From Clostridia bacterium (GTDB taxonomy: Bacteria; Bacillota_A; Clostridia; Christensenellales; Aristaeellaceae), in assembly GCA_017509065.1 (NCBI GenBank), contig JAFWQM010000125.1:26196-90195 (forward strand): a stretch of 64,000 nucleotides of DNA, written 5' to 3'. The notes under the pieces were generated by a model, which saw only the letters and a list, made by a program, of their open reading frames with translations, did not search any database and had not been told where the DNA came from. Of the stretch, positions 35,086 to 51,375 are shown piece by piece. The number at the start of each line of letters is the position of its first letter. Positions within the stretch are counted from its first letter, which is position 1. A program made the translations under genes and the position numbers.

Positions 35086-35114
35086 GCATATTTGCGGAAA
35101 AACCAGGCATATTG
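35086..35114 (+). promoter_or_regulatory. Candidate forespore (sigma-G type) promoter of spoIVB
   Basis: GCATA (35086-35090), a 17-base spacer and CATATTG (35108-35114) resemble the sigma-G pattern (GHATR, CATXHTA) with one mismatch in the -10. It lies 31 bases before the spoIVB start. spoIVB is a forespore gene in Bacillus. Short motif; inference. Confidence 0.4.
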
Positions 35115-35145: not shown

Positions 35146-36336
35146 ATGACAAAAAGAATCGGATGGTTTCGCAAAATCGCGGGAGCGTTCATGTCGGTGC
35201 TGGCGGCATGGATGATTTTCTCCCCCACCTCCCAGGCCCTGCGCGCCCTGCCGGCCACTTTCCGGATACACGTTGGCGAATCCTGCGCGCTGAATATTGG
35301 CGCGGCGGTGCTGAGCAGCGCGGATGAGCGGCTGAACCTGGACAATAACACGCTCACGGCAAAGGAAAAAGGAGAGGCGGAGGTGTCGGTGAACCTGTTT
35401 GGCCTCTTCCCCATCGGGAGGATGCGGGTGCAGGCCGGGGACGAGCAGCACCTCATGCCCGGCGGCGCAGCGGTCGGCGTGGCTTTAGCGACGCAGGGCG
35501 TGCTGGTGATCGGAGTATCGGACGTATCCGGAAAAAGCCCCGCGCAGAGCGCCGGGCTTCGGGCCGGGGATATCATCGAGATGGTAAACGGCGAACCGGT
35601 GAACAGCAGTCAGCATTTAGTGGAACTGGTTTCCTCCTCCAAAGGCCTGCCGCTTTCGCTGACCTTTGAGCGTAACGGCAGCAAGCGTACCGTATCGCTC
35701 CAGCCCATGCTCGACACCGCTTCGGGCGTGTACCGCATGGGCGCGTGGGTGCGGGACAGCACAGCGGGCGTGGGCACCTTATCTTATTACAATCCCCAGA
35801 ACGGCACCTATGGCGCGCTGGGCCACGCCATCAACGACGGTGACACCGGCAAGCTGCTGCCCGTACGGGAAGGCTCTTTGCTCAAAGCGGACATTGTGGA
35901 CGTGAAGAAAGGGCAGAAAGGCGCGCCCGGCGAACTGCGCGGCAGCTTCCTGCGCGATCAGGTGGTGCTGGGCAGCATCGAGGAAAACACGAACCTTGGC
36001 GTCTTCGGCGAACTGGACGCGCCTTACGTGAACCCGCTCTATCCCGACGGCCTGCCCATCGGCTTCCAGGAGACAGTGAAAACCGGGCCGGCGACGATCC
36101 TCTCCACCATTGACGGCGAAGGCATCAAGGAATATACCGTCGAGATCGTCCAGGCCAGCCGCCAGATGGCGCCCTCCCAGAAGAGCATGATCCTGAAAGT
36201 CACCGATCCCCGCCTGCTGCAGAGCACCGGCGGCATTGTCCAGGGTATGTCCGGCAGCCCGATCATCCAGGACGGACGCATCATCGGCGCAGTGACCCAC
36301 GTGCAGGTCATCCTCATGATGCCCACGAATCGCTGA
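35146..36336 (+). CDS. spoIVB: SpoIVB sporulation protease, 5' part interrupted by an element
   Basis: SpoIVB is the forespore serine protease that crosses into the intermembrane space and triggers pro-sigma-K processing. Visible here: N-terminal membrane segment (about 11-28), PDZ domain (about 108-190), and S55 peptidase domain with His227 (YGALGHAIND) and Ser369 (QGMSGSP). Homologous sequence stops at GAVTHV (residue 386). The last ten codons QVILMMPTNR come from the inserted element. The true end, VTHVFVDDPTHGYGLYIEW and on, is at 49754-49849 in frame. Joined, the protein is 413 residues, close to the usual 425. The truncated form lacks the last beta strands and is probably inactive. Confidence 0.93.
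   Translation: MTKRIGWFRKIAGAFMSVLAAWMIFSPTSQALRALPATFRIHVGESCALNIGAAVLSSADERLNLDNNTLTAKEKGEAEVSVNLFGLFPIGRMRVQAGDEQHLMPGGAAVGVALATQGVLVIGVSDVSGKSPAQSAGLRAGDIIEMVNGEPVNSSQHLVELVSSSKGLPLSLTFERNGSKRTVSLQPMLDTASGVYRMGAWVRDSTAGVGTLSYYNPQNGTYGALGHAINDGDTGKLLPVREGSLLKADIVDVKKGQKGAPGELRGSFLRDQVVLGSIEENTNLGVFGELDAPYVNPLYPDGLPIGFQETVKTGPATILSTIDGEGIKEYTVEIVQASRQMAPSQKSMILKVTDPRLLQSTGGIVQGMSGSPIIQDGRIIGAVTHVQVILMMPTNR
36291..36303 (+). other. Left attachment site core (attL) in spoIVB
   Basis: The 13-bp AGTGACCCACGTG at 36291-36303 is repeated exactly and in the same orientation at 49753-49765. Upstream sequence is spoIVB; downstream sequence is element. The core contains the palindrome CACGTG. Confidence 0.92.
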
Positions 36337-36360
36337 AACCCTTAGAACACAAAGGGTTTT
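36335..36360 (+). terminator. Terminator directly after truncated spoIVB
   Basis: AAACCCTT (36336-36343) pairs with AAGGGTTT (36352-36359), ending in TTTT. It begins at the stop codon of the truncated reading frame, so the element brings its own stop for spoIVB transcription. Confidence 0.7.
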
Positions 36361-36468
36361 GCGGGGTCATATACACACGGTATATCACTCGCGAAAAGCC
36401 CACGAGCAATCATCTATCAGTGTTTCCTCCACTGAAAGCGCATAAGATTTTGCGAACAATGAACCAAA

Positions 36469-36494
36469 GGCGCGCCGAACAAGCGCGTCTTTTT
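36469..36494 (+). terminator. Second terminator near the element's left end
   Basis: GGCGCGC (36469-36475) pairs with GCGCGTC (36483-36489, one G-T pair), followed by TTTTT. Insulates the cargo from spoIVB transcription. Bases 36361-36601 otherwise hold only the promoter at 36515. Confidence 0.65.
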
Positions 36495-36514
36495 GAATTA
36501 TAAACCGTTCTATC

Positions 36515-36543
36515 TGTACAGATAAAACGATTGATGGTATAAT
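36515..36543 (+). promoter_or_regulatory. Promoter of the kinase/regulator genes
   Basis: TGTACA (36515-36520), 17-base spacer, TATAAT (36538-36543). CTGTACAG around the -35 is a palindrome and may be an operator. It reads into the small ORF at 36602 and the kinase gene. Confidence 0.6.
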
Positions 36544-36601
36544 TCTCGCATAGTAAACGTTTTCCAATGTGGAAGTGACTGCAGCCGGGAGGAATGGAAC
36601 G

Positions 36602-36691
36602 GTGAACATTATCTTTGAACAATTGAAAACACCTGTTGGCTCCGTTCATGAGATCAAAGAGATTGCTCGTTCCATGCTGAAAAAAGCATAA
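36602..36691 (+). CDS. Small ORF, 29 residues, unknown
   Basis: GTG start with GGGAGG 9 bases upstream. It codes for VNIIFEQLKTPVGSVHEI then KEIARSMLKKA, a short amphipathic peptide. It lies between a good promoter and the sensor kinase gene, 12 bp before the latter. It may be a leader peptide or simply a remnant. I recognise no family. Confidence 0.4.
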   Translation: MNIIFEQLKTPVGSVHEIKEIARSMLKKA

Positions 36692-36703
36692 GCGGTATGA
36701 TTT

Positions 36704-38698
36704 ATGAAACGTAGAATGATCGTGAGCACATTGCTCAATATTATTCCGACATATTTGCTTTCCGGTCTCGCGGCCGTTTTACTGATAGCTGTTTCCTTTC
36801 CCGGGTCACAGGCGCGGGCGGAGACATCCGCCTGGCAAGCGCTGCAGGAAGCGATTGATCAGGCGGAAGAGGGTGATGTGATCACCCTCTCGGAAGATGT
36901 GACTGCGCTTGATGGAGAGGCCATGATTACGATTGCTCCAGGCAAGAGAATCACGCTGGATCTGAACGGCTATACGCTGGATCGAAATCTGAAAGAGCGC
37001 AGGAAAGATAACGGATGCGTTCTTTTCATCCAGGAAGGCGCGATTTTCACTCTCATGGACAGCGGCGAAGCCATGGGCACTGTCACTGGCGGATACCATA
37101 ACAACGGCGGGGGCATTCAGAATCATGGTACACTGATCATGGAAGGCGGATGCGTGACGGGCAACACCGCCCTGCATTCCGGTGGGGGCATTGCCAACTA
37201 TGGCGTGATGGTCCTGACGGGCGGGAGCGTGACGGGCAATACGGCTCTGGGCGAAGGCGGCGGAATCTATAACCACCCGAAGGCATATCTGACGATTCAC
37301 GGCGATCCTGTATTTGGCAACAGCGCTCCCGATAGCCCTGACATCGCCAACGAAGGCACGCTGTCATCTGCAAGCGAACAGGCCGATGAAGCATACAAGG
37401 AAGATATGCCGGTTCTAAAACGCTTCATGAATCAGCTTTCAGTGCTTCCCACTGCGGTGATCCTTTTTGCTCTGCTGCTGGTGGTGTGGCTGGACAGCTA
37501 TATGAGCCGTGAGCGTAAACGGGCTATGATCGTCATACTTGTCCTTGTCTTTGGGCTGATGATTCAAAATTATGTGGAATGCAAGATCGCGCCTATGAAA
37601 GGAAGCAATGCGCTGAGACTGCCGCTCAGCGTATTCGCCTATGCCGTGCGTCCGGCCATACTGGCGATGTTTCTTTCGATTGTGAAGCCGGGCGGGAAGT
37701 ATCGCCTTGCCTGGGCGATGGTCGGCGTGAACGCCGCTGTTTATATGTCAGCGTTCTTCTCGGACGTCACATTCAAATATTCGCCGGATATTCTATCGGG
37801 CGGCCATTTTATCGACGGTCCTTTGCACCATACCTGTACGGTTGTCAGCGCCTTGCTGTTTGCCTGGCTGCTGATCCTGACGATCCGGCAGTTTCAGCTG
37901 CGAACGATGCGGGAATCCTGGATTCCTTTCTTTGTGACGGCGCTGGTCGCGGGGGCTGTTCTCATGGATTTTACCGTGATATTCGATGAACAGCCCGTTT
38001 CCTTCCTGACCATGGCCATTGTCATCAGCTGTGTTTTCTACTATATATGGCTTCATCTGCAGTTTGTGCGGGAGCATGAAGACGGGCTGCGGGCCGAGCA
38101 GCGGATTCAGATGATGAAAACGCAGATCCAGCCGCATTTCCTGTTCAATACCCTGAATACGATCCGCGCTGTGTACACGATGAATCCGCCGCTGGCGGAT
38201 CAGACGCTGGAGAAATTCAGCAAGTATCTACGGCAGAATCTGGACGCCATGGAGCAGCCGGACCTGATCCCGTTTCCCAAGGAAATGGAGCACACCCGAC
38301 TGTACGCGGATATTGAAATGCTGCGCTTCCCGCATATTCGTATGGAATACAGGATCGATGATGAAGATTTCGTCATTCCCGCGCTGTCCGTCCAGCCGCT
38401 GGTGGAAAACGCCATCCGCCACGGCGTCCGTGGCCGTGAGGAAGGCATTGTGACCGTTTCCGCCTGGATGGATGAAACCTGCCACGTCGTTGAGATTCGG
38501 GACAACGGGGTTGGTTTTGACCCGGATGCGCGGAAAACGCCGGGAGAAACGCATATCGGCATTGAAAATGTGCGAAGCCGTCTGGAGCAATTGTGCGGCG
38601 GAACACTGAAAGTTGAGAGCGAAATCGGAAAGGGCACGATCGTTACGATTCGCATTCCGATGAACACCCATGAAAGCGGAAAGGAGCAAACGACATGA
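36704..38698 (+). CDS. LytS/YehU-type sensor histidine kinase with beta-helix ectodomain
   Basis: A 664-residue kinase. Signal/membrane segment (about 10-32), then an extracellular domain with parallel beta-helix repeats (GGGIQNHGTLIMEGGCVTGN, GGGIANYGVMVLTGGSVTGN, GGGIYN; about 140-225), a membrane domain of about seven segments (about 245-455), and a LytS-type kinase core. His478 sits in QIQPHFLFNTLN; the ATPase has NAIRHGV, DNGVGF and GIENVRSRLE. A beta-helix sensor on this class is unusual. The stop overlaps the regulator start (ATGA). CstA-family transport genes follow two genes on, as in pyruvate-sensing BtsS/BtsR systems, so a carbon-source signal is possible. Confidence 0.9.
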   Translation: MKRRMIVSTLLNIIPTYLLSGLAAVLLIAVSFPGSQARAETSAWQALQEAIDQAEEGDVITLSEDVTALDGEAMITIAPGKRITLDLNGYTLDRNLKERRKDNGCVLFIQEGAIFTLMDSGEAMGTVTGGYHNNGGGIQNHGTLIMEGGCVTGNTALHSGGGIANYGVMVLTGGSVTGNTALGEGGGIYNHPKAYLTIHGDPVFGNSAPDSPDIANEGTLSSASEQADEAYKEDMPVLKRFMNQLSVLPTAVILFALLLVVWLDSYMSRERKRAMIVILVLVFGLMIQNYVECKIAPMKGSNALRLPLSVFAYAVRPAILAMFLSIVKPGGKYRLAWAMVGVNAAVYMSAFFSDVTFKYSPDILSGGHFIDGPLHHTCTVVSALLFAWLLILTIRQFQLRTMRESWIPFFVTALVAGAVLMDFTVIFDEQPVSFLTMAIVISCVFYYIWLHLQFVREHEDGLRAEQRIQMMKTQIQPHFLFNTLNTIRAVYTMNPPLADQTLEKFSKYLRQNLDAMEQPDLIPFPKEMEHTRLYADIEMLRFPHIRMEYRIDDEDFVIPALSVQPLVENAIRHGVRGREEGIVTVSAWMDETCHVVEIRDNGVGFDPDARKTPGETHIGIENVRSRLEQLCGGTLKVESEIGKGTIVTIRIPMNTHESGKEQTT

Positions 38699-39498
38699 AA
38701 GCAATCTGCGTGGATGATGAATTGTTCGCAATGAAATACACGGTCATGCAATGTAAGCAGCTGCCTCAAATCGATGACGCACAAGGCTTTACCCGTTCCC
38801 GGGAAGCGCTGGATTATGTGAAAAACCATCCGGTGGATTTAGCGATTCTGGATATCAATATGCCGGAGATCGACGGCATCGCACTGGCTATCCGGATCAA
38901 GCAGATGCAACCGCAGACCGCTGTTTTGTTTCTGACCGCCTATAAGGGATACGCCTTCGACGCGTTTTCCGTCCATCCTTCCGGATACCTGCTGAAACCG
39001 GTGTCGCTGGAAGAATTGGCGAAGGAAGTCAGCTATGCTTTCGCAGATGCAAAGACCGCGCCGCAAGCACGGCTCCAGGTCCGTACGTTCGGGGAATTTG
39101 ACCTGCTGGTGGATGGAAAGCCCGTCTCGTTTCCACGGGCAAAATCAAAAGAGCTTCTGGCTTATCTCATCGATCGACAGGGCGGAACGATCACGAGAGC
39201 CGCTGCTTTTGCCATTCTGTTCGAGGATGAACTCTACACACGGCAGCGGCAGAAATACATGGATGTGATCATCCGCAGCCTGAGGACGACCCTGGATGAA
39301 TGCGGCGCTGGAGATATTCTGGAAATGAACCGGGGCGGCCTTCGTATACGTCCGGAAAAACTGGACTGCGATGCGTACCGTTTCTTCTCCGGGGATGAAG
39401 AAACTGTGAAAAGCTACCGGGGCGAATATATGAACGCCTATTCCTGGGCAAGCATGGTGGAAGCTTATTTGGATTGGATGGCGCATAAGAAAAGCTGA
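38695..39498 (+). CDS. Response regulator with SARP-type winged-helix domain
   Basis: A 267-residue regulator. Receiver domain 1-115 has VDDEL (Asp7-Asp8), phospho-acceptor Asp53 (LDINMPEIDG), FLTAYKGYAF and LLKPVSLEEL. Residues 125-265 hold an OmpR-like winged helix of the SARP/BTAD kind (VRTFGEFDLLVDGKPVSFPRAKSKELLAYL). LytS-type kinases normally pair with LytTR-domain regulators; here the output domain is different. Overlaps the kinase gene by 4 bp. RBS AAAGGAG. Confidence 0.9.
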   Translation: MKAICVDDELFAMKYTVMQCKQLPQIDDAQGFTRSREALDYVKNHPVDLAILDINMPEIDGIALAIRIKQMQPQTAVLFLTAYKGYAFDAFSVHPSGYLLKPVSLEELAKEVSYAFADAKTAPQARLQVRTFGEFDLLVDGKPVSFPRAKSKELLAYLIDRQGGTITRAAAFAILFEDELYTRQRQKYMDVIIRSLRTTLDECGAGDILEMNRGGLRIRPEKLDCDAYRFFSGDEETVKSYRGEYMNAYSWASMVEAYLDWMAHKKS

Positions 39499-39584
39499 AC
39501 CGACCGCAGCAGGCTGTGATGCACGCCTTCTTATATTGAAAGACAGAGATATTTTATTTTGTAGTTGTTTTTTGATGGACAAAA

Positions 39585-40667
39585 GTGGACCACCTGCGGA
39601 AGGAGTTTTCCCCGGATGTGATTCCGGTTCGGGATTTCAACTGCGAAATTGAGCAGGGGGATGTAATATCCATCATCGGCCCTTCCGGAACGGGGAAAAG
39701 CACCTTCCTGAATCTGCTGAACCGGCTGGAGGAACCTACGGCGGGAAAAATCTGGTTTGACGGCGAGGACACTACCGCGCCAGGATATGACCTGAATGAA
39801 ATGCGGAAAAAGATGGGGATGGTGTTTCAGTCCTTTAACCTGTTCAGCCATTTAACCTTAGCGGAAAACATCATGCTGGGGCCGGTCAAGCTGCTGGGCA
39901 GAAGCCGCCAGCAGGCGTATGACACAGCCATCAGACTGCTGAAGACTGTGGGCTTAGGGGATCGGGTTCTGAGCCTTCCGCATGAATTGTCCGGCGGGCA
40001 GCAGCAGCGGGCGGCCATTGCCCGGGCGATGGCCATGGAGCCCAAGGTGCTTTTGTTCGACGAACCCACCTCCGCCCTGGACCCCACCATGGTAGGTGAG
40101 GTGCTGGCCGTGATCCGCAACCTGGCCAAGGGCGGGGTGACCATGCTGATCGTGACCCACGAAATGAACTTTGCCAGAGAGGTGTCCAACAGGGTTTTCT
40201 ATTTGGACGAGGGCGTCGTTTACGAAGAAGGAAGTCCTTCCCGGATATTTGAAAATCCGCAGCGGGAAAAAACCAGGCTGTTTGTGAAAAACGTGAAGGT
40301 TTTCCGCTGGAACGCCCGGGAATCCGGAAAGGATTTTATCGGCTTAAGTACAGAATTGGAAAATTTTGCTTATCGAAACATGATGTCTCCGGACATCACC
40401 CGGAAAACGCGGCTGCTGATCGAGGAAATATTCGCTCAAATTGCCAGAACCGAAGATATCAACGCGGCGGAATTGAGCGTTTCCATGGAATACGCAGATC
40501 GAAAACGGGAGGCAGTGGCAGTGGTCGAATGGCTGGGATCGGCGTTCAACCCGATAGCGGAAGGAGACGAATACAGTAGGATACTGATCCGCCATATCAG
40601 CCCCGACGCCGCATGGACAGGGGATGGCAGCCATAACTGCGTGCGCGGCACGATCTGCGTTCAATGA
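39585..40667 (+). CDS. ABC ATPase (amino-acid importer type) fused to an RsbW-like domain
   Basis: A 360-residue protein. Residues 1-225 are an ATPase of the polar amino-acid importer type: GPSGTGKST, LSGGQQQRAAIARAMA, LLFDEPTSALDP, VTHEMNFAREVSNRVFYLDEG. Residues about 235-360 look like a degenerate anti-sigma/HATPase domain (RKTRLLIEEIFAQIA, then VVEWLGSAFNPIAEGDEYSRILIRH). No permease or binding protein is next to it. Start is uncertain: GTG at 39585 has no ribosome binding site. An ATG at 39575 (ATGGACAAAAGTGGACC) would give the expected MDKVDHLRKEF start if one A were removed from the AAAA run, so a frameshift is possible. Confidence 0.8.
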   Translation: MDHLRKEFSPDVIPVRDFNCEIEQGDVISIIGPSGTGKSTFLNLLNRLEEPTAGKIWFDGEDTTAPGYDLNEMRKKMGMVFQSFNLFSHLTLAENIMLGPVKLLGRSRQQAYDTAIRLLKTVGLGDRVLSLPHELSGGQQQRAAIARAMAMEPKVLLFDEPTSALDPTMVGEVLAVIRNLAKGGVTMLIVTHEMNFAREVSNRVFYLDEGVVYEEGSPSRIFENPQREKTRLFVKNVKVFRWNARESGKDFIGLSTELENFAYRNMMSPDITRKTRLLIEEIFAQIARTEDINAAELSVSMEYADRKREAVAVVEWLGSAFNPIAEGDEYSRILIRHISPDAAWTGDGSHNCVRGTICVQ

Positions 40668-40752
40668 ACCGTGACATGAAAAGACGGGTGCTGCAGACAA
40701 TGCGGCATGACGATCCGGGGAGAAAAACGGTAAGCAGCAGAGGGGTGAAGAA

Positions 40753-42180
40753 ATGATTTCTTTGGTGATCTCTTTCGCGGTGCTGATCGCGGGCTATCTC
40801 GTTTACGGCGGGCTGGTGGATAAAGTGTTCGCTCCAGATGAGCGGAAGACCCCGGCCTATACGAAGCAGGACGGGGTGGACTTTATTCCGCTGCCTACCT
40901 GGAAAGCGTTTTTAGTGCAGCTGCTCAACATCGCGGGCACCGGGCCGATCTTCGGCGCGCTGATGGGGGCCTGCTTCGGGCCGGTGGTGTTCCTTTGGAT
41001 CATCTTCGGTTCCGTGCTGGCGGGCGGTGTCCATGATTACATGTGCGGCATGATCTCCGAGCGGCACGACGGCGCGTCCATCGCCGAGCTCAGCGGCATC
41101 TATCTGGGCAAAGGCGCGAAATGGGTCATGCGCGTGTTTTCTGTTCTGCTCCTGCTGCTGACTGGCACGGTATTTGTGAACTCCCCCGCCGCGCTGCTGG
41201 CAAGGCTGACGCCGGATGCCCTGAACGTCACCTTCTGGATCGTCGTGATCCTCATTTATTATCTCTTAGCGACGCTTTTGCCCATTGATAAGATCATTGG
41301 CAAACTGTACCCGGTATTCGGCGCTGTACTCATCATCATGGCGGCAGGCATCCTGGGCGGCGTCATTTTCGGCGGCTACACCGTGCCGGAAATCACGCTG
41401 CAAAGCCTGCATCCCGAGGGGCTCCCCGTCTGGCCGTTCATGTTCATCACCGTTGCCTGCGGGGCCATTTCCGGTTTCCATGCCACCCAGTCGCCCATGG
41501 TGGCGAAGTGCATCAAGACCGAAAAAGTGGGCCGCACGGTGTTCTATGGCGCGATGATCTCCGAATCCGTGATTGCCCTGGTGTGGGCCGCGGGCGGCGT
41601 GGCGTTCTTCGGAGCCACCGGCGGTCTGCAAAACGCGCTTTCCGAGCTGGGCCAGTCTGGCGCGGTCTATGATATTTCCACCGGGATGCTGGGGCCGGTG
41701 GGCGGTATCCTTGCCATCGTAGGCGTGATCGCCTGCCCAATTACCTCCGGGGACACGGCGTTCCGTTCCGCTCGCCTGATTCTGGCAGAAATCACCGGAC
41801 TGAATCAAAAGCAGATCCGTAACCGTCTCATTATCACCCTGCCGTTGCTGAGCGCAGGCGCAGTGTTGACGCAGCTGGATTTCAACGTGCTCTGGCGTTA
41901 CTTCTCCTGGAGCAACCAGACGCTGGCGATGGTGTCTCTTTGGGTCGCCACGGCCTATCTGCTGAAAACCCATGCAGGCAAAGGAACGAGCTTGCTCACA
42001 GCCCTTCCCGCGGCCTTTATGACTGCGGTGAGCACGACCTACATCCTCATGGCGTCCGAGGGCTTCCGCCTGAGCGCCGGTATCAGCTATCCAATCGGCG
42101 CAGGATGCGCGGTCTTGGCTTTCGCTGCTTATCTCTTTGCGAGCCGAAAGATGAATACGCAAAAGTTGGTTTGGAAATAA
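40753..42180 (+). CDS. cstA: CstA-family carbon starvation protein / pyruvate transporter
   Basis: A 475-residue membrane protein with about 11-12 segments. Hallmarks: WKAFLVQLLNIAGTGPIFGALMGACFGP, VLAGGVHDYMCGMISERHDGASIAEL, FHATQSPMVAKCI, and CPITSGDTAFRSARLILAE. CstA proteins take up pyruvate or peptides during carbon limitation. This is the short form, compared with about 700 residues in E. coli CstA. RBS GGGGTGAAG. Kinase and regulator genes upstream may sense the same substrate. Confidence 0.93.
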   Translation: MISLVISFAVLIAGYLVYGGLVDKVFAPDERKTPAYTKQDGVDFIPLPTWKAFLVQLLNIAGTGPIFGALMGACFGPVVFLWIIFGSVLAGGVHDYMCGMISERHDGASIAELSGIYLGKGAKWVMRVFSVLLLLLTGTVFVNSPAALLARLTPDALNVTFWIVVILIYYLLATLLPIDKIIGKLYPVFGAVLIIMAAGILGGVIFGGYTVPEITLQSLHPEGLPVWPFMFITVACGAISGFHATQSPMVAKCIKTEKVGRTVFYGAMISESVIALVWAAGGVAFFGATGGLQNALSELGQSGAVYDISTGMLGPVGGILAIVGVIACPITSGDTAFRSARLILAEITGLNQKQIRNRLIITLPLLSAGAVLTQLDFNVLWRYFSWSNQTLAMVSLWVATAYLLKTHAGKGTSLLTALPAAFMTAVSTTYILMASEGFRLSAGISYPIGAGCAVLAFAAYLFASRKMNTQKLVWK

Positions 42181-42248
42181 AAGCATCCTCTTCCGGGCGG
42201 CTGCAGCGTCCATCAGCCAGAACAAATAAAAAGAAAGAAGAAATCACC

Positions 42249-43187
42249 ATGAAGAAAAACGGAACGATCATCGCCATCATGAAAAAGATGCTGAAACATA
42301 GCTTTATCCTTGCGCTTTGTCTGACTCTCCTCTTTTGTGCCGTCTGCAAGGCGGAGGTTTCCGAAAACAGCCAGTCTCTTTTACTCACCGGCGTAGGTAA
42401 CGCCCGTGAATTGGGCGGATACAAAACGGAAGACGGCAAAACGGTAAAGCGTGGCATACTGCTGCGCACTGCCAAGCTGGCAAAAGCCACGGAGGAGGAT
42501 ATGGAAAGACTGCTCTCGGTCTATCATTTGGCTGTGGATGTGGATTTCCGGGGCGATAATGAGGTAGAGAGCGCGCCTGATCCGGAGATGGAGGGCGTGG
42601 AATACCTGAATATCCATATCCTGGATGAAAGCACGGGCCTTTCGGAAGAACTGGAAGCCGAAATCGCGGTCCTGGAGGAGCAAGGCATTGAAATAGATAA
42701 GATCACCCAGCTCCGCCTGTTCCAGAAATACGGTGGATTCACCGATCAGATGTATGTGGACTTCCTTTCCTCCGACGTAGGCAAGGCCGGGTACAGCCGC
42801 TTTTTCCAGGCGCTGCTGACCCTGCCCGAAGACCGGGCTCTCCTGTTTCACTGCTCCCAAGGCAAGGATCGAACGGGCTGCGGGTCTATGCTGATTCTGT
42901 TTGCCTTAGGTGCGGATGAGGAAACCGTCATGCAGGATTTCCTTTTGACCAATGAATACAACGCGGCCCTGATCGCCGAGGAACGGGAATACCTGATCGA
43001 AAACGGCATCGGGGAAGATGAACTGGATGCGTACATGAAGGCCATGGATCAGGTTTTTCCCGAGTTCATGGAAAACGCCATCCAATGGATGACTGAAACC
43101 TACGGTTCGCCTTTGGGCTATATCACCCAAGCGTTAGGCGTGACGGAAGTGGAAATTCAAGCGCTTCGGGATAAGTTCCTGGAATAA
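42249..43187 (+). CDS. Secreted tyrosine/serine protein phosphatase
   Basis: A 312-residue protein with a signal peptide (about 10-35, FILALCLTLLFCAVCKAEV) and a Y_phosphatase3-type domain. The P-loop is HCSQGKDRTG with Cys202 and Arg208. The N-terminal segment GVGNARELGGYKTEDGKTVKRGILLRTAKLAKAT is typical of this LipA/PtpB-like family, which dephosphorylates phosphotyrosine or phosphoinositides. Start at 42249 chosen by signal peptide and the GAAAGAAG upstream. An exported phosphatase in a sporulation-gene element is unexpected. Substrate unknown. Confidence 0.9.
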   Translation: MKKNGTIIAIMKKMLKHSFILALCLTLLFCAVCKAEVSENSQSLLLTGVGNARELGGYKTEDGKTVKRGILLRTAKLAKATEEDMERLLSVYHLAVDVDFRGDNEVESAPDPEMEGVEYLNIHILDESTGLSEELEAEIAVLEEQGIEIDKITQLRLFQKYGGFTDQMYVDFLSSDVGKAGYSRFFQALLTLPEDRALLFHCSQGKDRTGCGSMLILFALGADEETVMQDFLLTNEYNAALIAEEREYLIENGIGEDELDAYMKAMDQVFPEFMENAIQWMTETYGSPLGYITQALGVTEVEIQALRDKFLE

Positions 43188-43339
43188 TTCATTTTGATTC
43201 CTTCCGGCAGGAAAACCATGATGGTTTGTCGAAAACAGTGTTCAGAGAGTCCGTTGAACAGACGATCACAACAATCAATGCAATATCGTCGAATAAGTGC
43301 GCGAAACAGTATGCCGGAAAAAAGGAGCGATGATCTGCC

Positions 43340-45046
43340 ATGAACAGAAAATCTCTGACAGCCAAAACCATACAGTCAACGGTGCTTTTCTCCGTTGCGC
43401 TGGGGTTGGTCGCGCTCATCATCGGCTTGGGCTTCTACGGCTATACCCTCGTCCATCAGTACATCACACGGGCATATGAAACCGCGAAGCTGGCGTCTGT
43501 TTCCGCGCAGAAAGGCGCGGATTCCATCAGCCTCTCCAAAGAGATCATGGGCATCTACAGGGGGCTGACGGAAGAAGAGAGAAACCAGGTTGGCACGGAG
43601 GAATACCGTCAGCATTTTTCCGGCCTGGAGAGCGTGACGAAAAAGGGCGGAGCTTACGATGTGCTGGTGCACATGCTGCGCAATTTCGTGAACGAAGTGG
43701 ATTATGTGTATCTCGGCATGTATGACCGAGACACCCAGGCGCTGGTTTACATTGTAGATTCCGATCAAGATGATCCCCTGTTTCCCGGCGAATGGGAGAG
43801 CGTGACAAAGCATGGATTGGAAAAATTCCTGAACTGGAACGGCGAAGGCATGCTCTATGACATTGATAATGCCCCGAATTATGGCTGGCTGTGCACCGCT
43901 GGATATCCGATCCGGGACGAAGCGGGCGAAATCTGCGAATTTTTGCTGGTGGACGTATCTATCAACAGCGTCATTCGGAATATGCTGAAATACGCACTGC
44001 AGATCAGCTTCGGCCTGACGCTTGCCACCGCGCTGATCGCCTGGCTGGTATCAAGGCGCATGAAAAAAACGGTGGTACAGCCCATTCACGCCATCGCCAA
44101 CGCTGCCGTCACGTATGTTCAGGACAAGCGGAGCGGAAGCGCCTGCCAGGATCACTTTTCCACGCTGAACATTCATACCGGGGATGAACTGCAAAACCTT
44201 GGCCAAATCATGGCGGACATGGAACGGGACCTGACGGAACACGAGAATCAGCTCACCCGGATCACCGCGGAAAAAGAACGCATCGGAACGGAATTGGCCC
44301 TTGCCACACAAATTCAGGCCGCCATGCTGCCGCATATCTTTCCGCCTTTCCCGGACCGCACGGACTTTGATCTCTATGCCAGCATGGACCCCGCCAAGGA
44401 AGTGGGCGGCGATTTCTACGATTATTTCCTCATCGACGACGACCATCTGGGCCTGGTAATAGCGGACGTATCGGGCAAAGGCGTCCCGGCTGCATTGTTC
44501 ATGATGGCTTCAAAAATCATCCTGCAAAGCGTGGCTATGCTGGGCGGGTCGCCAGCGGAAATCCTGACCAAAACCAACGAGGCCATCTGCTCCAACAATG
44601 AAGCGCGGATGTTTGTGACGGTGTGGGTCGGCATCCTGGAACTGTCAACCGGCAGGCTCACCTGCGCCAACGCGGGCCATGAATACCCCGTCCTCAAGCG
44701 AAAGGACGGCTGCTTTGCGCTGTATAAGGACAAACACGGATTCGTCCTGGGTGGGTTGGAAGGGTTTACGTACAAGGAATATGAGATTCAGCTGGAGCCG
44801 GGAGACAAACTGTTTGTCTATACGGACGGCGTGCCGGAGGCGATCAACCCTGAACAAGAGATGTTCGGCACGGAGCGGATGCTTGCGGCGCTGAATGAAC
44901 GACCGGACGCCGCCCCGCAGGACTTGCTGAAAAACATGCGCCGGGCGGTGGATGCTTTCGTCCGCGGAGCCGAGCAATTCGACGACCTGACCATGCTGTG
45001 CCTGGAATATAAGGGAGTACAAGCAAAGGAAGGCGACGTGTCTTGA
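43340..45046 (+). CDS. SpoIIE/RsbU-type PP2C phosphatase with sensor and HAMP-like linker
   Basis: A 568-residue membrane phosphatase. N-terminal membrane segment (about 14-38), extracellular sensor (about 40-210), second membrane segment (about 215-236), HAMP-like linker and coiled coil, then a PP2C domain (about 330-560) with ALATQIQAAMLPHIFPPFP, MDPAKEVGGDFYDYF, VIADVSGKGVPAALFM, TVWVGILEL, ANAGHEYP and FDDLTMLCLEY. Such phosphatases dephosphorylate STAS anti-anti-sigma factors. No STAS gene is visible in the window; the RsbW-like domain at 39585-40667 may be the partner. RBS AAAGGAG, 12 bases before ATG. Confidence 0.93.
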   Translation: MNRKSLTAKTIQSTVLFSVALGLVALIIGLGFYGYTLVHQYITRAYETAKLASVSAQKGADSISLSKEIMGIYRGLTEEERNQVGTEEYRQHFSGLESVTKKGGAYDVLVHMLRNFVNEVDYVYLGMYDRDTQALVYIVDSDQDDPLFPGEWESVTKHGLEKFLNWNGEGMLYDIDNAPNYGWLCTAGYPIRDEAGEICEFLLVDVSINSVIRNMLKYALQISFGLTLATALIAWLVSRRMKKTVVQPIHAIANAAVTYVQDKRSGSACQDHFSTLNIHTGDELQNLGQIMADMERDLTEHENQLTRITAEKERIGTELALATQIQAAMLPHIFPPFPDRTDFDLYASMDPAKEVGGDFYDYFLIDDDHLGLVIADVSGKGVPAALFMMASKIILQSVAMLGGSPAEILTKTNEAICSNNEARMFVTVWVGILELSTGRLTCANAGHEYPVLKRKDGCFALYKDKHGFVLGGLEGFTYKEYEIQLEPGDKLFVYTDGVPEAINPEQEMFGTERMLAALNERPDAAPQDLLKNMRRAVDAFVRGAEQFDDLTMLCLEYKGVQAKEGDVS

Positions 45047-45154
45047 AGGAAATGACGCTGCCTGCAACGTTGAAAGTATCTCCCAGGTGACAGCCATCGC
45101 GGATGAAACAAGCATATGAACTGAACTTACACAGAAAAAAAAGGAGGTATACAC

Positions 45155-46027
45155 ATGATCCAAACAGCACATATCTTCATCAGTAAAGCTTTGATCCGCT
45201 GCGCGATGTGCGGCGTCTGCGCCGCATTGCTGCTGATTTTCGCTTGCGTGACCGGATTGGCGGAGGAGAAGGCTCGCTCCCAGGCGCTTATCGAGCGGCT
45301 GGTGATTTCCTGGGCAGCTTACGCGGAACGGGACGCGCAGGCAATGGAGGAGCTTGCAACAGCCGATCCCGCACTGGGGGAAAAATGGAACCGTATCCTG
45401 GATCTCTGGGAAGCGCCTGTTTCGGTGAACGAAGCACTCCCGGACAATCTGCCTATTGATGATACGCTCTGTCTGGTTGCGCTGGGCTTTCAGCTGAATC
45501 CGGACGGGACCATGCGGGACGAACTGATCGAACGGCTGAAGGTGCTGCTGGCGGCTTCGGAAAAGTACCCTCAGGCCCGCATCGTCTGTACAGGCGGGGG
45601 CACCGCGGCGAACAATCCCACCGCCACGGAGGCGGGGAAAATGGCGGAATGGCTCCAGGAAAACGGCGTTGATCCTTCCCGCATCCTGGTGGAGGATCAA
45701 TCTATCACCACAGCGCAGAACGCCATCTTCACCTTTGATTTGCTGGAAGAGCACTGGCCTCAGGTGACTCAGGTCGCGATCATTTCCAGCGATTATCATA
45801 TCGCTACCGGCACGCTGCTCTTTGGCGCGGAGGCCATTCTCCGGGACAGCCCGGTCACAGTCGTCAGCAACGCCGCCTGGCACGCTCCCAGCGGTACGCT
45901 GTCCGCCATGTTCCAGGCCGGCGCGCTGATCGAGCTGTCCGGCGATGTGGAAACGGCGTTTGAAATCTATTATGAGACCTATGATATTCACGAGCTCCCG
46001 CCGCTGCACGGGGATGAAAAGGAGTGA
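45155..46027 (+). CDS. YdcF/SanA-family (DUF218) exported protein
   Basis: A 290-residue protein: membrane segment/signal (about 13-37), a linker, and a DUF218 domain (about 103-260) with CLVALGFQLNPDGTMRDELIERL, VCTGGGTAANNPTATEAGKMAEWL, VEDQSITTAQNAIFTFDLLE, and ISSDYHIATGTLLF. The family includes YdcF and the envelope-linked SanA/ElyC; biochemical role uncertain. RBS AAGGAGG 8 bases upstream. It ends 4 bases before the next gene, so the two form an operon. Confidence 0.85.
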   Translation: MIQTAHIFISKALIRCAMCGVCAALLLIFACVTGLAEEKARSQALIERLVISWAAYAERDAQAMEELATADPALGEKWNRILDLWEAPVSVNEALPDNLPIDDTLCLVALGFQLNPDGTMRDELIERLKVLLAASEKYPQARIVCTGGGTAANNPTATEAGKMAEWLQENGVDPSRILVEDQSITTAQNAIFTFDLLEEHWPQVTQVAIISSDYHIATGTLLFGAEAILRDSPVTVVSNAAWHAPSGTLSAMFQAGALIELSGDVETAFEIYYETYDIHELPPLHGDEKE

Positions 46028-46031
46028 GCGT

Positions 46032-47534
46032 ATGATTCCCATTGAACCGAGCATTCTCAGAACAGATATGATCCGCTGCGCCCTGTGTCAGAACGCGCCC
46101 TGCGACGCGGTTTGCGAAAAACTGAAACCCGCCGGTTTGCTGCGCAGCGTGTGGTTTCAGAACGAGCAATGTGCCGCCCAGAGGCTGCCGGATGTGAATC
46201 CTTGCATCACCTGCCCTGCGCCCTGCGAACGGGCCTGCGTCCGGGCGGGAGAGGTGCCCATCCGGGATGTGATTAACCGCCTGTATTACCAGGTGAAGCC
46301 GGAATGCGAAACGCCGATTCCAGAAAATGAAGAAAGGCTCAAATGCGACCTGTGCGGCATCCCGATGGAAAATCCCTTCCTGCTTTCCTCCTCCGTGATC
46401 GCCAGCACCTACGATATGTGCGCCCGCGCCTTTGAAGCGGGCTGGGCGGGGGCGTGCTTCAAGACCATCTGCACCCTGGACATCCACGAAGCCTCGCCCC
46501 GGTTTTCCGCCATTTCAGGCAGTGACGGCAGCATCATCGGCTTCAAGAACATTGAACAGCTATCCGACCACAGCGCGGCGGAAAACATGGAAACTTTCCG
46601 CAAACTGAAAGCCAACTATCCCACCAAATTCATCCTGGCCTCCATTATGGGCCAAAACGAAGCGGAGTGGGGCGAGCTGGCAAAACTGTGCGAGGAAAAC
46701 GGTGCGGACGCTATCGAACTCAATTTCTCCTGCCCCAACATGGCGGAAGGGGGCCTTGGCAGCGACATCGGCCAGGTGCCTGAATTGGTGGAGCGCTTCA
46801 CCCGCGCGGCGAAGCAAGCCTGCCATATCCCCGTGCTGGCGAAGCTGACCCCCAACGTGGCGAATATGTCCCCGGCGGCGGAAGCGGCTAAGCGAGGCGG
46901 CGCGGACGGCCTCGCCGCCATCAACACCATCAAATCTATCGTGGGCGTGAACCCGCACACCTATGTTTCAGCCCCCGCCGTGCGCGGCCAGAGCGCCGTG
47001 GGCGGGTACAGCGGCAACGCGGTCAAGCCCATTGCCCTGCATTTCATCGCGGAGCTGGCCCAGAACCCGCATTTGAAGGGAATGCACCTCTCCGCCATGG
47101 GCGGCGTGGAAACCTGGATGGATGCCCTGGAATTCATCCTGCTGGGCGGCGGTTCCATTCAGGTGACGACCGCCGTGATGCAGTACGGTTACCGGATCAT
47201 CGACGATCTGAAAGCGGGCCTGAACCTGTATCTGGCTGAAAAGGGTTTTTCCAGCGTGAAAGAGGCCATGGGCCTGGGTCTGGATAGCCTGAGCGGTACC
47301 ACCGACGTGCTGGAGCGGGATACCGTGGTTTTCCCGCATTTCATCCGGGAACGCTGCATTGGCTGCGGGCGCTGTGAAATCTCCTGCGCGGATGGCGGGC
47401 ATCAGGCGATCAAGCTGGATGAAAAACGCCGTCCGGTGTTAAACGGCAAAAATTGCGTGGGCTGCCACCTGTGCATCCTTGTCTGTCCTCAGCGGGCAAT
47501 CAAGCCGGGAGCAAAACGGATCACGCGGAAGTAA
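46032..47534 (+). CDS. Dihydropyrimidine dehydrogenase-like protein (PreA type with extra N-terminal Fe-S domain)
   Basis: A 500-residue protein. The N-terminal 90 residues are a cysteine-rich domain (RCALCQNAPCDAVCEK; CITCPAPCERACVR) like the first Fe-S domain of dihydropyrimidine dehydrogenase. Residues about 100-430 form an FMN-binding dihydroorotate dehydrogenase barrel (NPFLLSSSVIAS, ELNFSCPNM, GGADGLAAINTI, SAMGGVETW). The C-terminus has two 4Fe-4S motifs (CIGCGRCEISC; CVGCHLCILVC). The FAD/NAD(P) half (PreT) is missing here. It reduces uracil or thymine, or a related substrate. Start 46032 with AAGGAG. Confidence 0.88.
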   Translation: MIPIEPSILRTDMIRCALCQNAPCDAVCEKLKPAGLLRSVWFQNEQCAAQRLPDVNPCITCPAPCERACVRAGEVPIRDVINRLYYQVKPECETPIPENEERLKCDLCGIPMENPFLLSSSVIASTYDMCARAFEAGWAGACFKTICTLDIHEASPRFSAISGSDGSIIGFKNIEQLSDHSAAENMETFRKLKANYPTKFILASIMGQNEAEWGELAKLCEENGADAIELNFSCPNMAEGGLGSDIGQVPELVERFTRAAKQACHIPVLAKLTPNVANMSPAAEAAKRGGADGLAAINTIKSIVGVNPHTYVSAPAVRGQSAVGGYSGNAVKPIALHFIAELAQNPHLKGMHLSAMGGVETWMDALEFILLGGGSIQVTTAVMQYGYRIIDDLKAGLNLYLAEKGFSSVKEAMGLGLDSLSGTTDVLERDTVVFPHFIRERCIGCGRCEISCADGGHQAIKLDEKRRPVLNGKNCVGCHLCILVCPQRAIKPGAKRITRK

Positions 47535-47640
47535 ACGAGAAAAACAACGTAACGCACGAAAGATATGATTGCCTTTTCATGCATTGGATAGACAAATGAT
47601 ACCATAGTACCGGAAACGCTGATCACATCTCCCCTCTTCA

Positions 47641-47673
47641 CCTGCCATTTAGCGATGAAATGGCAGGTTTTTT
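47641..47673 (+). terminator. Intrinsic terminator of the cargo operon
   Basis: CCTGCCATTT (47641-47650) pairs perfectly with AAATGGCAGG (47658-47667), then TTTTTT. Bases 47535-47828 otherwise show no gene. Confidence 0.92.
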
Positions 47674-47828
47674 CTGCCTTATTACGAATTAGAGCAAAGC
47701 CGAACGGCCTGAATCAAGCCGCTGTTGGCATTACATTTATAGAATCCGTAAAGGAAAGCAGATAAAAAAGTATATAAACGCTTTCTTCGCAAACAATAGA
47801 ATCAAATCTATCGTGAGAAGGTGAATGT

Positions 47829-48014
47829 ATGGTGATTGCGGAAGTAAAAAACGAAATAGCGACCGTTCGGATTCGTGATGAATTATATAGAAAAGAAACG
47901 CGGCAGGCCATGGCGGAAGTCAGCCGGATCGTATCTGAGGCTTATCAGCGCCGCATTTTCGCTGAGGTTCCTGTATTATCTGAAAATGCTTCCATTCACT
48001 GGGTAAATCATTGA
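47829..48014 (+). CDS. Small 61-residue protein next to the recombinase; candidate directionality factor
   Basis: ATG with GAAGGTG 5 bases upstream. The 61 residues are mostly helical (about 14-45: RIRDELYRKETRQAMAEVSR and on). No family recognised. The gene ends inside the -35 of the recombinase promoter and lies 47 bp before the recombinase. Recombination directionality factors of serine integrases are often small proteins encoded beside the integrase (for example SprB of SPbeta), so this is the best candidate here. Inference from size and place only. Confidence 0.55.
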   Translation: MVIAEVKNEIATVRIRDELYRKETRQAMAEVSRIVSEAYQRRIFAEVPVLSENASIHWVNH

Positions 48015-48039
48015 CAATATTGAGGATATTTCTTATGAT
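48011..48039 (+). promoter_or_regulatory. Near-consensus sigma-A promoter of the recombinase
   Basis: TTGACA (48011-48016), exactly 17 bases, TATGAT (48034-48039), 22 bases before the recombinase ATG. This is a vegetative-type promoter; no sigma-E or sigma-G pattern is seen there. Confidence 0.82.
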
Positions 48040-48061
48040 ATAGCCGGAAAGGAGGTTCTGC

Positions 48062-49621
48062 ATGGAGCAATATGCGAAGTATCTTCGCAAATCGCGCTTC
48101 GACCGTGACTATACGGAACTGAGTGTGGAGGAAACACTGAAGCGTCACGAAGCCATCCTGGACAGGCTGGCGAAGGAAAGAGGATACCATATTGCGAAAA
48201 CCTATCACGAAGTCGTTTCCGGCGAATCCATCGCAGCCCGGCCTATGGTACAGCAACTGCTGGCTGAGGTGAACGCGGGTCTGTACACAGGCGTTCTGGT
48301 GGTGGATCTGGAGCGTCTCGCGCGCGGCAACAGCGCCGATCAGGCGTATATCAGCCAGGTATTTCAATTTTCGGAAACAAAGATCATCACACCCGCCAAG
48401 GTGTACGACCCGAGCAACGAATTCGACGAGGAGTATTTTGAGTTCGGCCTGTTCATGAGCAGGCGCGAATACAAAACCATCAACCGCCGCCTGATACGCG
48501 GCCGGGAAAGCAGCGCATCCGAAGGAAAATACCTGGGCAGTATCGCGCCATACGGATACCGGCGCGTGAAGCTGAAAAATGAAAAAGGCTACACCCTGGA
48601 GCCTGACCCGGAGGAAGGACCGGTCGTGCAGAAAATCTTCGATCTGTTTCTTCAACAGGAAGGCACCAAAAAAATCGCCAATATCCTGAACGATGCTTCG
48701 ATTCCCACGCGTCACGGCGATCTGTGGACCTACGCCACCATTTCCAATATCCTCACCAATCCGGTCTACATTGGAAAGATCAAGCGCGGGTATTGCAGGC
48801 AGCTGAAAAGCGTGGAGAACGGCCAGGTGGTCAAGCGGGTGAAGCACCTGAAAAACATGGCGGAATATACGGTGTTTGAGGGACTCCACCCGGCGCTGAT
48901 TGACGAAGAAACCTACGAACGCGCCCAGGAAATCCGATTTGGAAAACAGCCTGCTGTCCGGGTGAAAGACAACCACGAACTGCAAAACGCTTTCGCAGGA
49001 CTCATATACTGTGCCTGCTGCGGCAAGCGGGTAGCGCGCACGACGATGGCGGCGTCACAAAAAGGCCGCGTCAGAATACGATGCGTAAACATGCGCGTCT
49101 GCCATAATGCCTCGGCGGATTATGCCCTTGTGGAAAAGGTGATCATCGAAGCGCTCCGGCAATGGCTGGACGGCTACCGGGTGAAAATCGAAACCGCAGG
49201 CTTTGCCGAAGATATTGCAAACGGAAAGGCGCAGATAGAAAAGCTGGACCAGGAGATAAAAAGAATACAATCACAATTGGACAACGCCTGTGATCTGGTG
49301 GAACAGGGACTGTACACGCTGGATTTCTTTAAAGCCCGGCGGGAAAAGCTGAACGAAGCGCTTTCCGAAACGGAAAGCAAAAAAGAGGCCATCAGAAGAA
49401 GCATTGCCCAGCTTGAACAGAACAACGCTTCCCAGTCCGCCCTGATTCCCAATACGGAAGCGCTGCTGGAAAGCTACGGAGAGATGACGGCGGCGGAACG
49501 GAATAAACTGCTGAAAGTCATCCTGCGCAGGATCGAGTATCAGAAAGGCCCGGATGGGAAAATCGTCATCGACTTGTTTCCCCAGCTTCCCCGGTTTGAG
49601 CAGCAGACTCAAGCCATATAG
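48062..49621 (+). CDS. Large serine recombinase (SpoIVCA-like) of the spoIVB element
   Basis: A 519-residue site-specific recombinase. The catalytic domain (1-145) has YLRKSR with nucleophile Ser11 and DLERLARG. The recombinase domain (about 155-260) has GSIAPYGYRRV and ILTNPVYIGKIKRG. A zinc ribbon follows (Cys317, Cys320, Cys341, Cys347) and a long coiled coil (about 375-460), the parts that sense attachment-site pairing in serine integrases. Size is close to SpoIVCA, which excises the Bacillus skin element. RBS GGAGG 6 bases upstream. The gene points at, and ends 131 bp from, the right attachment core. Confidence 0.95.
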   Translation: MEQYAKYLRKSRFDRDYTELSVEETLKRHEAILDRLAKERGYHIAKTYHEVVSGESIAARPMVQQLLAEVNAGLYTGVLVVDLERLARGNSADQAYISQVFQFSETKIITPAKVYDPSNEFDEEYFEFGLFMSRREYKTINRRLIRGRESSASEGKYLGSIAPYGYRRVKLKNEKGYTLEPDPEEGPVVQKIFDLFLQQEGTKKIANILNDASIPTRHGDLWTYATISNILTNPVYIGKIKRGYCRQLKSVENGQVVKRVKHLKNMAEYTVFEGLHPALIDEETYERAQEIRFGKQPAVRVKDNHELQNAFAGLIYCACCGKRVARTTMAASQKGRVRIRCVNMRVCHNASADYALVEKVIIEALRQWLDGYRVKIETAGFAEDIANGKAQIEKLDQEIKRIQSQLDNACDLVEQGLYTLDFFKARREKLNEALSETESKKEAIRRSIAQLEQNNASQSALIPNTEALLESYGEMTAAERNKLLKVILRRIEYQKGPDGKIVIDLFPQLPRFEQQTQAI

Positions 49622-49654
49622 CTTAGTTAGAACGAGTAATGCACAAAAGCCATT

Positions 49655-49720
49655 TACAGTTTTCTCGGAAGGGGGCCTGGGGGAAACTGCTCTTTGGCTC
49701 CAAAGAGCAGTTTCCCCCAG
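49655..49720. repeat. Dispersed hairpin repeat, copy 3 (inside the element)
   Basis: Perfect 21-bp stem (49677-49697 with 49700-49720; arm CTGGGGGAAACTGCTCTTTG) with flank TTTCTCGGAAGGGGG. It is inside the element, 33 bp from the right core, so a host-type repeat family is present on the element. Confidence 0.85.
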
Positions 49721-49752
49721 AATTTCTCGTCCTTCCGTGTTGGTATCATCAG

Positions 49753-49765
49753 AGTGACCCACGTG
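49753..49765 (+). other. Right attachment site core (attR)
   Basis: Second copy of AGTGACCCACGTG. Left of it is element sequence; right of it the spoIVB reading frame resumes with TTTGTAGACGACCCC. The dyad arm GGTATCATCAGAGTGACC ends inside it. Confidence 0.92.
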
Positions 49766-49849
49766 TTTGTAGACGACCCCACGCACGGATACGGGCTGTA
49801 CATCGAATGGATGCTGGACGCCGCGGAAGCGCTGGATGAAGCCGCGTGA
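49754..49849 (+). pseudogene. spoIVB: Detached 3' end of spoIVB
   Basis: From GTG at 49754 the frame reads VTHVFVDDPTHGYGLYIEWM and ends LDAAEALDEAA before TGA at 49847-49849. This is the conserved C-terminus of SpoIVB (GAVTHVF...DPT.GYG..IEWML in Bacillus). It has no start of its own and no ribosome binding site, so it is silent unless the element leaves. The 12 bases before the split are shared by both halves, so the joined frame is exact. Confidence 0.93.
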
Positions 49850-51296: not shown

Positions 51297-51317
51297 CACC
51301 TATTTTTTCTTTTTATT

Positions 51318-51375
51318 CTGGGGGAACCGCTCTTTGGAGCCCAAAGAGCGGTTCCCCCAGACCTCTTCCGAGAAA
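51318..51375. repeat. Dispersed hairpin repeat, copy 4
   Basis: Perfect 20-bp stem (51318-51337 with 51341-51360; arm CTGGGGGAACCGCTCTTTGG). The conserved flank is on the right (CCTCTTCCGAGAAAG), so this copy is inverted relative to copies 1, 2, 3 and 5. It lies upstream of the rplJ promoter. Confidence 0.85.

Follow-up and report, generated by a model that had tools for sequence, protein, structure and literature searches.

A serine recombinase element splits spoIVB at a 13-bp core in a clostridial genome: a putative gene-intervening element in a forespore gene

Introduction

Elements that intervene in sporulation genes are known from sigK, spsM, spoVFB, spoVR, gerE, and yabG, and spoIVB is not mentioned in the papers searched that describe them (PMC5595907, PMC4191935, PMC10747680, PMC5025042). 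The targets of skin, SPbeta, vfbin, and vrin are genes expressed in the mother cell, and during sporulation SPbeta leaves the mother cell only, so that the spore keeps SPbeta (PMC4191935). The C. difficile recombinase CD1231 is expressed in vegetative cells and in both compartments, whereas expression of its recombination directionality factor, CD1234, is confined to the mother cell; in E. coli, CD1231 integrates by itself (PMC5025042). In B. subtilis spoIVB is a forespore gene, the efficient transcription of which requires sigma-G (PMC12251134). Here, we describe an element of 13,462 bp that splits spoIVB in DNA of a Clostridia bacterium (GenBank assembly GCA_017509065.1, contig JAFWQM010000125.1, positions 26,196 to 90,195). 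All coordinates refer to this whole stretch of 64,000 nucleotides, called the window, and all genes listed lie on its forward strand. Our best reading is that the element is a gene-intervening element like skin or gin, probably one in a new target. An earlier note made from the sequence of the window had known of no such element in spoIVB; no paper on one was found, in a literature search whose coverage left most subscription journals and preprints outside.

Results

spoIVB is split at a 13-bp core

The 5' part of spoIVB (35146-36336) is an open reading frame (ORF) of 386 native codons, the last of which encode GAVTHV, followed by ten codons belonging to the element and a stop. Its product matches the NCBIfam model spore_IV_B over residues 9-388 with 399.6 bits (cut-off 305.25) and Pfam Peptidase_S55 over residues 195-388; past GAVTHV it continues as the foreign peptide QVILMMPTNR. 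The earlier note had placed the loss of spoIVB homology right after GAVTHV, at a 13-bp core, and the domain matches do stop there, at residue 388. This core, AGTGACCCACGTG, is present in exactly two copies in the 64-kb window, both in direct orientation, one at the left end of the element (attL, 36291-36303) and one at the right end (attR, 49753-49765), so that the element measures 13,462 bp from core to core (36291-49752). The 3' part of spoIVB, encoding VTHVFVDDPTHGYGLYIEWMLDAAEALDEAA followed by a stop, lies downstream of the right core (49754-49849), in frame and at the 13.46 kb that had been claimed, the right-end coordinate given before being one base off.

When a single core is left after joining, spoIVB becomes a gene of 413 uninterrupted codons, which reproduces the earlier result. 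The joined product aligns over residues 1-413 with the proteins of five relatives that bear an intact gene (L001-L005, in genomes G001-G005) at 84-90% identity, and GAVTHVFVDDPTHGYGLYIEWM is unbroken in all five. The joined gene is collinear with these intact genes, and therefore the right-hand piece is the spoIVB C-terminus; this comparison with intact relatives had been proposed beforehand, and the segment at 49754 matches their C-terminus. The restoration of a reading frame by joining at one flanking repeat is a defining property of sporulation gene-intervening elements, and it is found here. The 27 residues lost from the truncated protein comprise the last strand and the C-terminal helix in an AlphaFold model of the intact L003 protein (mean predicted local distance difference test score 89.8), and when 25 intact clostridial proteins are aligned with that of the window, the C-terminal motif GYG-x-YIEWML is at least 90% conserved. 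The crossover in the left core (36291-36303) falls in the Thr-His-Val codons. THV is the PDZ-binding motif of SpoIVB, and Thr393 is the proposed third catalytic residue (structure 9LNF; PMC12502668).

The element encodes a large serine recombinase and a small conserved ORF

Beside the right end, where the earlier note had seen a large serine recombinase, a protein of 519 amino acids (aa) is encoded (48062-49621) that has the three expected Pfam domains, Resolvase (PF00239), Recombinase (PF07508), and a zinc-ribbon (PF13408), and matches a PHROG integrase family. It is a large serine recombinase of the kind that characterizes gene-intervening elements. Its top NCBIfam match, which is under the cut-off, is XisF, the excision recombinase of the fdxN element. 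An attachment site (attP) rebuilt from the outer half-sites is symmetric about the same GT in all five elements of the set (window, G006, G011, G108, and G015, with G122 left out; p at most 0.003), and this symmetry places the inferred crossover at 36301-36302 in the left core and at 49763-49764 in the right core.

A 61-aa ORF (47829-48014) precedes the recombinase gene, and an ORF of 47-61 aa is found directly upstream of each of the seven recombinases in the comparison, of which six belong to split genes and the seventh to a viral contig (L107). The protein collection contains five relatives of this small ORF (E of at most 0.001), and it has no match among the PHROG or NCBIfam families. The conserved ORF is a candidate recombination directionality factor; putative and known factors of 72 and 53 aa have been described (PMC10747680). 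At the other end of the element, a conserved segment (36400-36494) is common to G006 and G011 and contains, by eye, a terminator-like hairpin and a T run at about 36469-36494. A dispersed palindromic repeat (GGGGGAAACTGCTCTTTGG) lies between the recombinase gene and attR (49654-49734); further sites of this repeat are found in the window near 1508-1585, 28166-28247, and 51310-51506, and in the relatives L004, L006, L008, and L011.

Five relatives carry a split at the same codon

The genomes of the relatives were assembled from metagenomes, and many are named from rumen samples. In a genome scan, the SpoIVB match ends at residue 388 in L006 and L011, and a third genome has the C-terminal part only, on two contigs. 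A search of 15 genomes for the recombinase yielded three matches at E of at most 1e-100, all three in genomes with a split spoIVB. Among 308 genomes of the family to which G006 belongs, five (G006, G011, G015, G108, and G122) carry the recombinase at E of at most 1e-150, at most four candidates being scored per genome. SpoIVB is matched at E of at most 1e-5 in 178 of the 308. Among the matches listed, which cover 149 genomes, SpoIVB ends at residue 388-394 in five and reaches at least residue 398 in 142, while two (G154, at a contig edge, and G131) were left unclassed. The five genomes in which SpoIVB ends at 388-394 are the five recombinase carriers, and they are split at the same codon as the window; no second spoIVB was present in them among the matches listed (down to E of 1.6e-87). 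The C-terminal part follows directly after the recombinase gene in the window and in four of the five carriers (G006, G011, G108, and G122).

In even samples of the order (396 genomes, E of at most 1e-150) and of the class (391 genomes, E of at most 1e-130), the recombinase was found in G006 only. A scan of viral contigs for the recombinase family returned one record, L107 (IMGVR_UViG_3300031555_007120); neither SpoIVB nor the circular junction, in the one form sought, was found in scans of viral contigs. L107 is a 42-kb contig of a viral collection that encodes a 61%-identical recombinase and the same small ORF and starts with an att-like core, and no matching half was seen by eye in the last 600 bases at its other end. 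Among the best 120 SpoIVB clusters of the protein collection, a script flagged 26, of which three are intact by eye; the other 23 end at GAVTHV or shortly behind it. In 14 of these the end is exactly at GAVTHV, as would result if a stop codon followed the core or if the contig broke there. Provided that these are real stops, the free THV end of the 14 would be a C-terminal PDZ ligand.

The split gene and the sporulation genes of its carriers are maintained

Both halves of spoIVB are open in the window and in the five carriers. G108 and G122, which share the split, differ in their spoIVB N-terminal parts by 63 synonymous and eight nonsynonymous changes, a ratio of nonsynonymous to synonymous substitution rates (dN/dS) of 0.039, as compared with 0.083-0.208 for six pairs of intact genes; a mixed pair, G011 and the intact L008, gives 0.045. 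Their C-terminal parts differ by three synonymous changes and one replacement near the end. The N-terminal part is thus, to judge from these changes, under strong purifying selection although both genomes share the split. Had the gene died with the insertion, this pattern would not be seen; the value for the N-terminal part is also compatible with a role for the truncated protein.

A sigma-G match is present in all 20 genomes analyzed, the five carriers included; 13 matches exceed the curated cut-off, and those of G122 and G010 are partial. Among 14 control genomes, B. subtilis alone matches this model. Small spore proteins were found in 19 of the 20 genomes, including the five carriers (in G011 as a fragment and a weak match), the exception being the intact relative G004. 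A sigma-K-like match, below the curated cut-off, is present in G006, G015, G108, and G122, and the one match listed for G011 is possibly sigma-E; since none of the 20 genomes exceeds the sigma-K cut-off and the model matches non-spore-formers as well, sigma-K is a putative assignment here.

Predicted promoters of spoIVB and the small ORF are of the forespore type

The predicted spoIVB promoter of the window (35086-35114) consists of GCATA (35086-35090), a 17-bp spacer, and CATATTG (35108-35114), and the pattern G[CT]ATA-N17/18-CATA[AT]TG lies upstream of spoIVB in all 14 family loci examined. The pattern GCGTA-N17/18-CANAATAG occurs in 12 of 29 stretches upstream of small-spore-protein genes, the 17 others, which include second genes in tandem and uncertain starts, being left out. 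A sigma-G-type matrix was built from these 26 sites (12 small-spore-protein and 14 spoIVB promoters), none of which comes from a recombinase operon. From the B. subtilis consensus, and from the likeness to small-spore-protein promoters, we presume these to be sigma-G sites, an assignment that is a prediction.

A promoter of this type is also predicted for the small ORF of the window (47770-47798; GTATA at 47770-47774, N17, AACAATA at 47792-47798). Within 130 bp upstream of the small ORF, the matrix scores with a shuffle p of 0.0007 in each of G011, G108, and G122 and of 0.027 in G015. A 90-bp test had missed G006 (p 0.59), the site of which lies further upstream, and all seven elements were therefore rerun with 130 bp; L107 is significant in neither test. 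The six elements that remain when G108, a near-duplicate of G122, is omitted give a combined Fisher p of 6e-7, against which it has to be held that the matrix shape was chosen after the motif had been seen by eye, so that this value is somewhat optimistic. The forespore-type promoters of spoIVB (14 of 14 loci) and of the small ORF (several elements) point against a target gene and an excision that belong to the mother cell, though the window's own small-ORF site is weak. The recombinase gene of the window is preceded by a predicted sigma-A-type promoter (48011-48039; TTGACA at 48011-48016, N17, TATGAT at 48034-48039) that agrees with the consensus at 11 of 12 bases (shuffle p 0.002), and a site with at least 10 of 12 is present in five of the seven elements.

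The cargo is host-like and varies between elements

Between the conserved left end and the small ORF, the element encodes a sensor histidine kinase (36704-38698; Pfam His_kinase, HATPase_c), a response regulator (38695-39498; Response_reg), an ABC transporter ATP-binding protein (39585-40667; ABC_tran), a CstA-family transporter (40753-42180; CstA), a protein of the tyrosine phosphatase family (42243-43187; Y_phosphatase3), a SpoIIE-type PP2C phosphatase (43340-45046; SpoIIE), a DUF218 protein (45155-46027; DUF218), and a PreA-like dihydropyrimidine dehydrogenase subunit (45975-47534; NCBIfam PRK08318.1, above the cut-off). Integrase aside, no phage structural or replication family was matched by the ten element proteins in PHROGs, the matches being confined to integrase and DNA invertase (both by the recombinase), ABC transporter, kinase, and families of unknown function; the genes by which a prophage or a prophage-like skin is recognized are thus not seen in the window element. 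Relatives have DNA related to the eight cargo genes at other places in their genomes, with identities of up to 89% (up to 87% for the CstA-family gene), and the phosphatase-DUF218-PreA order spans two contigs of the intact relative G009, which we take to join over their ends.

Elements that run from core to core in direct orientation and have common ends are found in the window (13.5 kb), G006 (7.1 kb), and G011 (12.4 kb). G011 carries a segment for a SpoIIE-type phosphatase like that of the window (74-82% identity over about 250 and 170 bp, on the opposite strand), and the remaining cargo differs among the three. With shared ends and differing content, the unit is therefore one of constant ends and largely changing cargo. 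Regulation carried by cargo genes of the element was considered and dropped because the cargo differs between carriers. By eye, the spoIVB-site elements of L113 (G015 contig C13, after 4464) and L116 (G215 contig C38, after 4185) open with a parA-like gene, which suggests a plasmid-like or conjugative variant.

sigK-like genes are split in other members of the family

A sigK-like gene is split near residue 108-119 in G007 (contig C252, L108, 372-707 and 8578-8922) and in G013 (C101, L109, and C134, L110), and a single sigK-like half was found in G010 (C211, L111) and in G202 (C157, L112). A different serine recombinase, recognized by eye, abuts the sigK half in G007, is on the same contig in G202, and in G013 abuts the half with its C-terminal part. 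In all likelihood these are skin elements of sigK, and other species of the family appear to gate the sigma-K checkpoint directly at sigK by such an element. As a mother-cell control for the promoter analysis, the split sigK of G007 and G202 showed no clear promoter by eye, and the control was not used.

Discussion

On balance, it is probable that the 13,462-bp element, which carries a recombinase and no recognized phage structural genes, leaves precisely and in so doing rebuilds spoIVB, with the 61-aa putative directionality factor, the expression of which is predicted for the forespore, as the trigger. In such a scheme the recombinase would be produced constitutively from its predicted sigma-A promoter and would keep the element in place (attP x attB). 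The promoter predicted for the small ORF is of the sigma-G type and resembles those of spoIVB and of small-spore-protein genes, so that the small protein would switch the recombinase to excision in the forespore, at the time when SpoIVB is needed. Rebuilt SpoIVB would then presumably signal the activation of sigma-K, as it does in B. subtilis; once the spore has germinated, the recombinase may reinsert the excised circle by itself. If the trigger does have a forespore promoter, it is the chromosome of the spore that loses the element, and the element has to come back to it, which a recombinase without its partner could bring about, as CD1231 does in E. coli (PMC5025042). This full course of events, in which a forespore-specific directionality factor would drive programmed excision from inherited DNA and a constitutive recombinase would restore the element after germination, is put forward tentatively, as a possibility to which we give less than even weight.

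A number of observations weigh against such excision. Excision during sporulation is inferred from the sequence, and an element that left the forespore chromosome might be lost. The small-ORF promoter is weak in the window when taken by itself (p 0.04 over 90 bp, 0.066 over 130 bp) and not significant over 130 bp in G006 (p 0.06) or L107 (p 0.11), and G108 and G122 have no sigma-A site upstream of the recombinase gene. In G015 the recombinase gene lies about 9 kb from the C-terminal part, on the same contig. G215 has an intact spoIVB and a second copy that ends at residue 388, with no recombinase at E of at most 1e-150; the truncated pair G015-G215 has a dN/dS of 0.122, which is not below that of intact pairs. 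The split requires four changes on a spoIVB tree of 17 rows, at least three of them forced by well supported branches, so that it comes and goes, as a mobile element would be expected to do whether or not the host regulates it. Finally, in G108 and G122 the N-terminal half is followed by core chromosomal genes, which are not explained by a simple skin: with core genes between the halves, simple excision would delete core DNA, unless the halves are inverted, and the contigs of both genomes are too short to give their orientation.

Several other accounts of the locus can be set against this evidence. That the element exits spoIVB at random and at a low rate, to give a mixture of sporulation-competent and blocked cells with no developmental timing, is unlikely, though it has parallels: the C. 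botulinum yin element was both integrated and excised in one pure culture, with excised copies at all time points (PMC10747680), the L107 contig starts at its core, and SpoIVB clusters ending exactly at GAVTHV are what an assembly fork between occupied and empty sites would leave. A stop codon after the core or a strain mixture would give the same ends, however, and the conserved forespore-type promoter suggests timing. Decidedly unlikely is plain insertional inactivation, with spoIVB serving as an attachment site, the split gene dead, and sporulation lost or being lost in the carriers. The scattered distribution, with close relatives intact, and a cargo without obvious link to sporulation would agree with it, but neither half has lost its reading frame in the window or any of the five carriers, dN/dS is low where two species share the split, and sigma-G and small spore proteins are retained, as is a sub-cut-off sigma-K-like match in four of the five carriers.

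The core genes of G108 and G122 would be accounted for by a chromosome rearrangement, in which an attP beside the recombinase gene at one site recombined with an attB in spoIVB, so that host DNA came to lie between the halves and rejoining would amount to an inversion or a large deletion. About 48.9 kb follow the N-terminal half in G122 before the contig ends, and the genes recognized there by eye include spoIIAA-spoIIAB, ftsH, and genes for a sigma-F-like protein and a tRNA nucleotidyltransferase; 13.8 kb of this is common to G108 at 95.7% identity, and an rseP-like gene precedes the G108 recombinase. The cargo of the window likewise resembles chromosomal DNA of relatives, and the DNA downstream of its spoIVB is not next to spoIVB in the relatives compared. 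As an explanation of the locus this is nevertheless highly improbable, given the compact elements with common ends and direct orientation in the window, G006, and G011. We give almost no credence to a truncated SpoIVB of 396 aa that works as it is; such a protein would keep the region of the active-site serine and the THV motif with Thr393, the proposed third catalytic residue (PMC12502668), but it lacks the last strand and C-terminal helix of the L003 model and the conserved GYG-x-YIEWML motif, and the C-terminal part is conserved in the carriers though no start of its own was seen.

In skin and SPbeta, the best-studied cases, the DNA lost in sporulation is that of the mother cell, which dies, and the spore genome stays whole; a spoIVB element with forespore-type promoters would break this rule. 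If forespore excision is true, the element would be a counterpart of skin that acts reversibly and in the germline, the first of its kind, with the sigma-K checkpoint gated from the spore side, and it raises the question of reversible germline excision as a developmental switch in a bacterium. Mobile DNA would have two ways into the checkpoint, through spoIVB as well as through sigK. Furthermore, the elements form a family in which the ends stay constant and the cargo, of host type, is exchanged, and the locus offers a serine recombinase together with its candidate small partner and att sites that are defined.

The earlier note had called the element skin-like. This is borne out by the interrupted gene, its two cores, the recombinase, and the skin-like logic, and the relatives strengthen it; the element is not recognizably phage-like, however, and its target is a forespore gene in B. 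subtilis. Since spoIVB belongs there to the forespore and the targets of skin, SPbeta, vfbin, and vrin to the mother cell, "skin-like" hides the main puzzle, namely that excision would hit the spore's own DNA. The C. difficile skin likewise combines a serine recombinase with a separate small directionality factor, and a sigma-A recombinase with a cell-type-specific partner, as is predicted for the window; unlike the window element it is prophage-like, lies in sigK, and is excised in the mother cell only, whereas the window has a forespore gene and a forespore-type promoter (PMC5025042). SPbeta in spsM, with SprA and SprB, is flanked by att sites and has a recombinase and a directionality factor on a sporulation promoter, as predicted here, but it is a full prophage that is excised during sporulation in the mother cell only (PMC4191935). 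The yin element in yabG of C. botulinum shares a serine recombinase, a putative small directionality factor, a clostridial host, and a short repeat (14 bp in yin); it differs in being prophage-like, in the putative sigma-K promoter of its directionality factor, and in that integrated and excised forms were seen in culture (PMC10747680). With no phage structural or replication genes recognized and a host-like cargo, the window element is closer to gin, the non-phage element in gerE, than to skin. The gin element of Bacillus cereus ATCC10987 has, like that of the window, no phage-related genes, a serine recombinase, a short repeat core, and a sporulation gene that it splits, and, like the family to which the window element belongs, its gene content varies between strains; a further factor, GirX, is required for gin (PMC5595907). 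It differs in its size of 28.6 kb, its three serine recombinases, its target gerE, and a sporulation-specific rearrangement that has been shown experimentally (PMC5595907).

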